A stretch of DNA of 64,000 nt from Brevundimonas lenta (GTDB lineage: Bacteria; Pseudomonadota; Alphaproteobacteria; Caulobacterales; Caulobacteraceae): contig NZ_JACIDM010000002.1 in the NCBI RefSeq assembly GCF_014196335.1, positions 620,001 through 684,000 of the forward strand, written 5' to 3'. This document shows positions 48,206 to 50,016 of this stretch, in pieces (the stretch's first letter is position 1; every line of letters starts with the position of its first letter). A program made the translations under genes and the position numbers. The notes below the pieces were generated by a model that was not told the DNA's origin, ran no database searches, and saw only the letters and a list, made by a program, of their open reading frames with translations.

Positions 48206-48964
48206 ATGTCCATCGACCGTCGCCTGATGCTGCTGGGTCTGTGCGGGATCGGCGGCGCCATGGCCAGCGGCTGCGCCAACGGCGACCGTGAGGCCCGGAA
48301 CCTCAGAATCACGGAGGCGGGTCCCGGACGGATCCAGACCGTGCCGCCGCAGTATTTCCAGGACATCGGCTTCTCGGACTGGAGCGACGCCGAGCCGGAA
48401 TATGTGCTGTACCCCGGCGACGAGATCGAGATCGCCACCCCGACCGCCAGCGAACTGACGCGGACCCAGAAGATCGGCCCGGACGGGCGTATCTCGCTGC
48501 CGCTGGTCGGACAGATCATGGCGGCGGACCGGACCATCGCGGAGCTGGAGGCCGACGCCTCGGCCGCCTACGCCAGCCAGCTGCGCCGGCCCGTGGTCGA
48601 GGTGACGCTGAAGACGGCCGGACCGCTGAAGGTATGGGTCGACGGCCAGGTGCGGACGCCGGGCGTCTACGACATGCCGGGCGACATCGATGCCTGGCAG
48701 GCGGTGATCCAGGCGGGCGGCTTCACGCCGTCAGCCAAGCGCGACCAGGTGGCGCTGGTCCGGCGCGGTCCGGGCGGTTCGCGCATGCTGCGGGCGGTGG
48801 ACCTGAGCCCCAACGACCGCGAGATCGTGGCCCTGCGGCGGGGCGACATCGTCTTCGTGCCGCTGACGGTCATCGGCGAGGTCGCGGAATGGGTGACCCA
48901 GTTCCGGTTGGCCCTGCCGATCGGCTTCAGCTACGCCATTGGCGGGCAGTATCAGTCGTTCTAG
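48206..48964 (+). CDS. hfsD: HfsD-like outer-membrane polysaccharide export lipoprotein (Wza family)
   Basis: A 252-residue lipoprotein (MASGC lipobox, Cys23). The Poly_export domain reads YVLYPGDEIEIATPTASEL, IGPDGRISLPLVGQI and YASQLRRPVVEVTL; a SLBB-like part follows (VWVDGQVRTPGVYDMPG, VIQAGGFTP), then a C-terminal amphipathic end (WVTQFRLALPIGFSYAIG) that may form the membrane-crossing ring. It would export the polysaccharide through the outer membrane, with the HfsA-like protein beneath it. Confidence 0.87.
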   Translation: MSIDRRLMLLGLCGIGGAMASGCANGDREARNLRITEAGPGRIQTVPPQYFQDIGFSDWSDAEPEYVLYPGDEIEIATPTASELTRTQKIGPDGRISLPLVGQIMAADRTIAELEADASAAYASQLRRPVVEVTLKTAGPLKVWVDGQVRTPGVYDMPGDIDAWQAVIQAGGFTPSAKRDQVALVRRGPGGSRMLRAVDLSPNDREIVALRRGDIVFVPLTVIGEVAEWVTQFRLALPIGFSYAIGGQYQSF

Positions 48965-48994
48965 CGGCGCGTCGTCGGAGGCGCCCTGCCTGCG

Positions 48995-49025
48995 AAGTGA
49001 TTAGTGGCTAGTGGTTAGTGATTGC
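48995..49025. repeat. left heptamer array, inverted partner of 49436-49466
   Basis: Four tandem 7-base units AGTGATT, AGTGGCT, AGTGGTT, AGTGATT run from 48996 to 49023. The first 19 bases (48995-49013) are a perfect inverted copy of 49448-49466. Over 31 bases there are 3 mismatches. It sits 30 bases after the hfsD-like stop and 28 bases before the four-helix-bundle ATG. Confidence 0.85.
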
Positions 49026-49053
49026 ACCGGAGCTGGGTCGCAGGGGGCAGCCT

Positions 49054-49446
49054 ATGACCGAGGGCGTTACGAACTATCGAGACCTTCAGGTCTGGCGCCA
49101 GGCCCTCGACTGGGCAGAGGCCATCTACGAAGCGACGGCGCATTGGCCACGCGATGAGCGGTTTGGCCTCATAGCGCAAATCCTACGGGCCGCCGTCTCT
49201 GTCGCCTCAAACATCGCCGAGGGAGCGGCTCGCCGCAGCACGGGGGAATTTCTTCAGTTCGTGGGAATGGCTCGCGGATCTCTCGCCGAAGCCGAAACCC
49301 AGCTCATTCTGTCCCAGCGACTGGGCTATTTGCCCGCGGCCGACGCGACCGCTCTTCTCACCGCCTCGCGAGACATCAGCCGGATGCTGGTGGCGCTCTC
49401 CGGGTCGCTGACCCGTCGCAGGAACGGCGCCCCAGGCAACCACTAG
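49054..49446 (+). CDS. four-helix-bundle protein of the 23S rRNA IVP/Avd type
   Basis: A 130-residue all-helical protein: YRDLQVWRQALDWAEAIYEA, WPRDERFGLIAQILRAAVSV, ASNIAEGAARRSTGEFLQF, ARGSLAEAETQLILSQRLGY. This is the S23/IVP family, first found encoded in 23S rRNA intervening sequences and related to Avd of diversity-generating retroelements. It has a good GGGGG ribosome site. No reverse transcriptase is near. Its stop codon lies inside the right heptamer array, so gene and repeats travel as one unit of about 470 bases. Confidence 0.88.
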   Translation: MTEGVTNYRDLQVWRQALDWAEAIYEATAHWPRDERFGLIAQILRAAVSVASNIAEGAARRSTGEFLQFVGMARGSLAEAETQLILSQRLGYLPAADATALLTASRDISRMLVALSGSLTRRRNGAPGNH

Positions 49447-49466
49447 TCACTAGCCACTAATCACTT
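49436..49466. repeat. right heptamer array, inverted partner of 48995-49025
   Basis: On the minus strand four 7-base units read AGTGATT, AGTGGCT, AGTGACT, AGTGGTT (49465 back to 49438). The outer 19 bases are identical to the left array in inverted orientation. The unit carries the last codons and the TAG of the four-helix-bundle gene. No clear target-site duplication is visible outside the pair. Confidence 0.85.
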
Positions 49467-49501
49467 GCCACGCTCGATATCCGAAGGCGGCGTCCGATCT
49501 C

Positions 49502-49804
49502 CTACGCCGCGAGCTTGACCACGCCGGCGTCGATCCAGCGGCGGGCGGCCTTCTGGGCTTCGCAGATTTCGTCCTGATCCATCTCCTGGCTCATTTCGCG
49601 GCGATAGACGCGCGCCTCAATGGAGCCCTTCATGGCGGCCAGGTTGAAGATCATGTGGGCCGAGACCCGGTCCATCGGGCAGCCGTTCTGCCCGGTCGAA
49701 TAGGACATGCCGAGGCGGAACAGGTCCGAGCCGTCCATGTCAGCGGTCGGCAGGGGCAGAGCCTCCTCGACCATGTCAGGCGCCATTTCTTGCGCGTTCA
49801 TCAC
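49502..49804 (-). CDS. small Sel1-like repeat protein
   Basis: A 100-residue protein. After an acidic start, LFRLGMSYSTGQNGCPMDRVSAHMIFNLAAMKG followed by A..YR.EMSQEM and EAQKAARRWI follows the Sel1/TPR-like spacing (LG..Y..G..v..D...A...f..AA..G). The level of match is modest. Such proteins usually mediate protein contacts. The 212-base stretch upstream (49805-50016) is comparatively AT-rich and probably holds its promoter. Confidence 0.6.
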   Translation of the reverse strand: MMNAQEMAPDMVEEALPLPTADMDGSDLFRLGMSYSTGQNGCPMDRVSAHMIFNLAAMKGSIEARVYRREMSQEMDQDEICEAQKAARRWIDAGVVKLAA

Positions 49805-50016
49805 CGTATCTCCCGGATCCGGAGCCTTTCTGGCCCCGCTCTCTGACCCGAATGAAATACCCGCGGTTTGAAGTTAAAGTTAACAGCAGAGGGCCCGGAA
49901 GACCTTTTGTGTAAAGGCCCGATGAACTTTCGGACCTTCCTTCAGACCTCTGAAATAGTTTGGAAATCCCTGATTCAGAGGGACTAACGAAACCTCACCC
50001 GGAAGCTTACGAACGG

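Follow-up and report, generated by a model that had tools for sequence, protein, structure and literature searches.

A heptamer-bounded gene behind hfsD

The window analysed here is a stretch of 64,000 nucleotides from Brevundimonas lenta (contig NZ_JACIDM010000002.1, positions 620,001 to 684,000), and our subject within it is a compact unit at 48996-49465 (~470 bases, in a class of ~450 bp overall), in which one gene for a four-helix-bundle protein of the IVP (S23) family is enclosed by two inverted arrays of a 7-base repeat. The left array (48996-49023, + strand) is composed of four AGTGRYT heptamers (AGTGATT, AGTGGCT, AGTGGTT and AGTGATT), with the G-rich strand pointing inward. The right array (49438-49465, − strand) has four more, which read AGTGATT, AGTGGCT, AGTGACT and AGTGGTT from the outside on the reverse complement, and is bordered on its outer side by a degenerate fifth heptamer, CGTGGCA (49466-49472, − strand). 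The two arms share their outer 19 bases exactly and align over 31 bases with three mismatches, and three consecutive AGTGRYT units occur at this locus only within the window (0.01 matches in 100 dinucleotide shuffles). A spacer (49024-49053, + strand) containing AGGGGG at 49042-49047, a plausible candidate for the ribosome-binding site, leads to the ATG of the gene (49054-49446, + strand; 130 amino acids), whose last codons and TAG stop codon (49444-49446) are located inside the right array.

By sequence profile, the window protein is a clear member of the family (PF05635, E=1e-34, 119.3 bits against a cut-off of 33.8; TIGR02436, 114 bits against 24). Its AlphaFold model is a four-helix bundle with a predicted local distance difference test score (pLDDT) of 93, which matches 2gsc and 2rld (template-modelling scores 0.93 and 0.90) and, more weakly, Avd (4dwl, 8ub7); the DivGenRetAVD profile gives 18.9 against a cut-off of 80, which is below the level for an Avd equivalog. 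To our knowledge, S23/IVP proteins have no known function, despite two structures from 2006-2007. A homopentameric ring is given for the family member XCC0516, at second hand, in PMC4990558 (citing Lin 2006). None of 50,697 phage records contained an IVP match, and phage carriage was rejected.

The unit lies outside the rRNA genes, between hfsD, by profile a polysaccharide export family protein with a score below the equivalog cut-offs, and a convergent Sel1-like gene. An Rfam search of 48500-49900 returned no match, and neither a sigma-70 promoter nor an intrinsic terminator was found in 48700-49800. A preliminary description, made from the sequence alone, had proposed the coordinates and array layout, the stop codon within the right array and the IVP/Avd-like four-helix-bundle identity of the protein, and all of these were borne out.

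Full, gene-less and empty alleles

The preliminary description had suggested aligning relatives at the hfsD-Sel1 junction, and in a comparison of this neighbourhood across 61 genomes of the genus (G000 being the genome of the window) full, gene-less and cleanly absent states were all found. The whole unit is present at this site in G000 and G111, and in G083 it is located immediately 3' of hfsD; in G104, G012 and G042 a short AGTGRYT element without the gene, or the remnant of one, lies right behind the hfsD stop codon; and the spacer between hfsD and the Sel1-like gene is ~20 bases or less in G114, G034, G021, G077 and G059, although the identity of these genomes at the hfsD site is only ~75-85% and exact element ends are unreadable there. 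Since this spot can hold full, gene-less or empty alleles, the unit is evidently gained and lost in one piece, and the spot has served as a site more than once. At one further site in the genus, again behind a stop codon, G098 has an AGTGGYT element and G061 a TTAGGAA element, and G012 is empty.

The same three states are found on cyanobacterial plasmids, where the flanks of Nostoc and Calothrix sites are 85-95% identical overall. At a tra site in Nostoc (TraM-like gene; flanks 94-95% identical), pC052_D and pNe_5 carry an IVP element and pNsp_c a gene-less one of GGGAACT type, and p057_A and p057_K have neither. A second Nostoc site is occupied in pNsp_a and empty in pC052_A, pC052_B and pNsp_b; its junction reads TTCTAA[element]TTATGC, as opposed to TTCTAGATTATGC in the empty allele, with no target duplication at this one clean site, the others being too diverged to tell. 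In Nostoc edaphicum a third element separates ribonucleotide reductase genes; Calothrix NIES-4105 lacks it. On Aulosira, Trichormus and Scytonema plasmids only the ~419 bp of an element match, the surroundings being different. On the evidence of these compared alleles, the whole unit has been mobile over evolutionary time.

IVP genes and period-7 arrays across phyla

Heptamer arrays beside other members of the family, a second check named in the preliminary description, proved to be common. Period-7 arrays were detected at 123 of 157 IVP loci, with shares of 67/77 inside the genus and 56/80 outside it. The 80 loci from outside the genus (Proteobacteria, Bacteroidota, Planctomycetota, Chloroflexota, Spirochaetota, Cyanobacteriota, Clostridia, candidate phyla and other groups) are the best matches to a Xanthomonas protein in a genome-wide scan and do not sample the family at random. 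In a motif-free test, 71% of 104 IVP loci had an inverted-repeat score of at least 12 across the gene, against 0% when their own flanks were displaced and 2% when loci were mispaired; in the same 104 loci, period-7 arrays were present in 54% of flanks versus 3% of displaced ones, with periods 3-6 and 9-13 at or near background. Left and right consensus heptamers agree within one base as inverted copies at 76 of 85 loci (9% for shuffled loci, and 1/85 in direct orientation), and the G-rich strand points inward in 98 of 100 left arms. The heptamer itself is specific to the lineage, with examples including AGTGRYT, AGGCAGT, AGTGGCG and AGGGATT, GGGAATC in Xanthomonas, and GGGAGTA, GGGAACA and GGGTGTA on cyanobacterial plasmids. 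The linkage of IVP genes to heptamer arrays is general across phyla, and neither outcome that had been named as speaking against the preliminary description, relatives keeping the gene without arrays or arrays unlinked to the family, occurred.

Several loci are worth recording individually. The inverted arrays at the IVP genes of L161, L176, L177 and L182 look period 8 (or 8-9), not 7. At loci of the GAGTGGC family (L002, L004, L005, L007, L010 and others) the IVP frame begins in the left array, where the heptamers encode the N-terminus MSGEWRVASGE. Plasmids 1 and 2 of Calothrix brevissima NIES-22 (L336/L337) carry the same IVP unit with GGGTGTA arrays, on both behind a phage-integrase-family gene, and on the Anabaena sp. 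90 plasmid pANA02 (L398) a four-helix-bundle gene is located between cas6 and cas4 of a CRISPR (clustered regularly interspaced short palindromic repeats) locus.

Cognate pairs and gene-less satellites

Protein and heptamer co-vary as cognate pairs. Heptamer distance tracks protein distance (Mantel r 0.56, with at most 0.14 in permutations); mapped onto the protein tree, heptamer class needs 19 changes, versus at least 38 with shuffled labels; and in genomes with multiple IVP genes (G041, G058, G107, G117) each gene has a different heptamer. For three heptamers, cognate arrays were found in 11/12 genomes with the matching IVP type versus 11/119 of the rest (p=2e-9), in 13/13 versus 17/118 (p=4e-10) and in 10/11 versus 29/120 (p=2e-5), counts that take in arrays at the IVP gene itself, with IVP types assigned for read loci only; six non-cognate pairings were all at background (p at least 0.38). 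As to a cognate transposase of the kind associated with a miniature inverted-repeat transposable element (MITE), the IVP gene, which is patchy (68/131 genomes), tracks its satellites genome by genome, but its protein has no known catalytic activity.

The satellites are gene-less elements that share the arrays of cognate full elements and are present in many copies. The genome of the window has one IVP gene and several further AGTGRYT arrays, and all other AGTGRYT arrays that were read are convergent pairs round a gene-free interior of 37-96 nt. One gene-less family with a conserved 58-nt core reaches tens of copies (about 25-50 in some genomes) and is found in G083, G098, G012 and G061. In ~150 kb of array-rich sequence nearly all arrays have a convergent partner close by (two stand alone), and the paired arms enclose only a short core and never an unrelated gene. 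Array size peaks at four heptamers in full and gene-less elements alike, and the in-register likeness of the two arms of gene-less elements is barely above that of shuffles.

Two other repeats occupy comparable places. A second, unrelated palindromic repeat of ~155 bp (L338:6976-7140, G098:C20; CTCTCCCATTGGGAGAGG ... CTTCTCCCAATGGGAGAAGG), with many copies in G083, G012 and G061, uses the same type of intergenic site and fills a place where G012 and G083 have a heptamer element. In L319 (G058:C71, 20464-20700), CACGAAG-type inverted repeats are found where G000 has a heptamer element; repeats of this type flank GxxExxY (TIGR04256) genes in other bacteria, and are possibly a parallel class of element with another protein.

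Placement, RNA structure and candidate helpers

Elements are frequently located at the ends of genes. With the count restricted to stop codons outside the element, 39% of the sides of gene-less elements (32 of 82) have the stop codon of a frame of at least 150 amino acids within 15 nt, compared with 1.8% of random points, and full elements have one nearby in 14/52 cases upstream and 6/52 downstream (1.6% at random); they often sit between convergent genes. This proximity is not proof of target choice, because selection against other sites would look alike. Hairpin-loop targeting, as in rRNA helices, was rejected as a general rule, the outer flanks of 80 elements being no more complementary than mispaired flanks; a few empty sites are hairpin-like, such as TAACC-TCC-GGTTA in G012. 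The arrays of the window would pair in RNA (z score -2.3), and the only Rfam matches near 20 other loci were S-adenosylhomocysteine (SAH) riboswitches.

The preliminary description had supposed that the unit needs helpers in trans. Of these, the two most obvious candidates, a reverse transcriptase and a Y1/REP (repetitive extragenic palindromic) transposase, were each considered as a general required helper and rejected, as neither RVT_1 nor Y1_Tnp tracks the element. RVT_1 is absent from the genome of the window, is about equally frequent in genomes with and without IVP (18/68 and 17/63) and is present in one of 22 genomes with AGTGRYT arrays. Y1_Tnp is found in 4/131 genomes and is missing from most of the array-rich ones.

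A probable minimal mobile element and its alternatives

In our view, 48996-49465 is probably a complete member of a class of minimal mobile elements, in which inverted, lineage-specific heptamer arrays, most often of four units, enclose one IVP gene. We infer that IVP recognises its own heptamer and serves the satellites in trans. In the proposed model, IVP, a pentameric ring by homology, would bind its heptamers as single- or double-stranded nucleic acid, at about one heptamer per ring subunit, as TRAP does with triplets; the ring would bring both arms together and the segment so bounded would thus be made fit for insertion at the 3' ends of genes, with satellites that carry the same arrays being served in trans. 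As IVP has no catalytic signature, strand transfer would probably be carried out by host machinery, either in DNA replication or repair or by way of RNA, with no reverse transcriptase linked to the element. A wider proposal, that IVP elements are a bacteria-wide mobile class without a transposase or reverse transcriptase of their own, whose ring reads a heptamer code and mobilises gene and satellites into gene 3' ends, and that most intergenic tandem repeats of heptamers, as well as the rRNA intervening sequences, derive from them, seems to us evenly balanced between right and wrong.

Several observations weigh against the mobile-element reading of the window unit: no catalytic motif is recognisable in the IVP protein, neither transposition nor an excised or intermediate form has been observed, the 58-nt core lacks covarying structure (RNAalifold -6.9), and 34 of the 157 IVP loci have no period-7 array at the threshold used, some having period-8 or degenerate arrays and others none. 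In addition, G012, G068 and G098 hold AGTGRYT arrays, in tens of copies in G012 and G098, with no cognate IVP gene found; arrays can persist alone, and these genomes contain satellites without a master copy. The preliminary description had spoken of a minimal mobile or structured-RNA unit. Its mobile half is strongly supported by the empty, gene-less and full alleles, the multi-copy gene-less relatives and the IVP-heptamer linkage, whereas the structured-RNA half gains little, since the window arrays would pair but the core is without covariation.

The alternative that deserves most attention, possible though doubtful, is a domesticated or regulatory RNA-binding system, in which the inverted arrays would be hairpins at mRNA ends, bound in a TRAP-like manner by an IVP ring that acts as a regulator and not as a mobiliser. 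It would account for elements directly 3' of stop codons and often between convergent genes, for arrays able to pair in RNA, for the co-variation of protein and heptamer and for a pentameric family (again as PMC4990558 relays it from Lin 2006), but sites whose alleles are full, gene-less or empty, together with multi-copy satellites, amount to gain and loss of the whole unit, and the gene lies inside the arrays and is patchy. A regulatory role is compatible with mobility, and the two could coexist.

We regard it as highly unlikely that the arrays are independent slippage repeats, or the ends of another element, at gene 3' ends, with the IVP gene as cargo that recombines into matching arrays. 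Arrays do occur in genomes without IVP, with a variable number of units, and many sites are common to several elements; against this, heptamer identity tracks the IVP clade, multiple IVP genes in one genome each have their own heptamer, only a short core was found between paired arrays in the ~150 kb examined, and the ~419 bp Nostoc element matches by itself where the contexts are unrelated. Least probable among the accounts weighed here is a helper-dependent retroelement (Avd-like, with reverse transcriptase in trans) or a REPIN-like element moved by a Y1/RAYT transposase; the similarity in fold of IVP to Avd and the REPIN/RAYT logic of short palindromic satellites recommend it, yet the distributions of RVT_1 and Y1_Tnp given above leave it largely refuted in this genus.

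Comparison with known systems

The element class is very widespread and apparently undescribed: no paper joining IVP genes with heptamer repeats was found in the open-access literature, a novelty that is provisional, as subscription papers and preprints lay outside the search. If the mobile-element reading is correct, it would explain the heptamer rows scattered over many bacterial genomes, and the IVP-heptamer link offers, in testable form, an explanation for both function-less proteins and unexplained repeats. It also holds the prospect of a recognition code between proteins and heptamers, of which nature offers many pairs, of a transposition route that possibly needs no transposase of its own and of an explanation for how rRNA intervening sequences arose; thousands of genes now annotated as "four helix bundle protein" would become mobile-element genes.

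Like MITEs and insertion sequences, the element has terminal inverted repeats, non-autonomous copies and presence/absence alleles, but it lacks a transposase and, at the one readable site, a target-site duplication. Its protein shares the fold of Avd of diversity-generating retroelements, itself a pentameric ring, and the element differs from these systems in having neither a reverse transcriptase nor a template/variable repeat, as well as in its DivGenRetAVD score. The REPIN/RAYT system likewise pairs a single cognate protein gene with short, palindromic satellites between genes (PMC3116915); in contrast, the protein of the window unit is a four-helix bundle and not a Y1 transposase, the ends are tandem heptamers and the gene is located inside the element.

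Heptamer repeats of the same kind have been reported as unexplained, namely GGGAATC in Xanthomonas, with 70-75 convergent inverted pairs per genome (Rehm et al., PMC4692102), and GGGGA(C/T)T in Nostoc (PMC4692102). TAACTGA repeats in Beggiatoaceae are mostly unpaired direct repeats (PMC4679880), and tandem heptamers are reported to be the commonest tandem repeats between prokaryotic genes, their function being one to which there is "no clear clue" (PMC6344855). These papers gave no mobile element, gene link or function; the Xanthomonas IVP genes seen here are flanked by GGGAATC-type inverted arrays. The closest relative is the intervening sequence in the 23S rRNA of Coxiella burnetii, which is 428 nt long, carries an S23p/IVP gene, ends in inverted repeats and has three tandem GACAGAT heptamers just 5' of the open reading frame, in strain-variable copy number; its authors drew no wider class (PMC4990558), and the idea of a mobile intervening sequence is that of Ralph and McClelland, as quoted there. 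Protein family, size (428 nt against ~450) and an S23p gene within inverted-repeat ends are shared with the window unit, which differs in lying outside rRNA genes and in having gene-less multi-copy satellites and many lineage-specific heptamers, and rRNA intervening sequences that encode IVP look like a special case of the element, located in rRNA genes.
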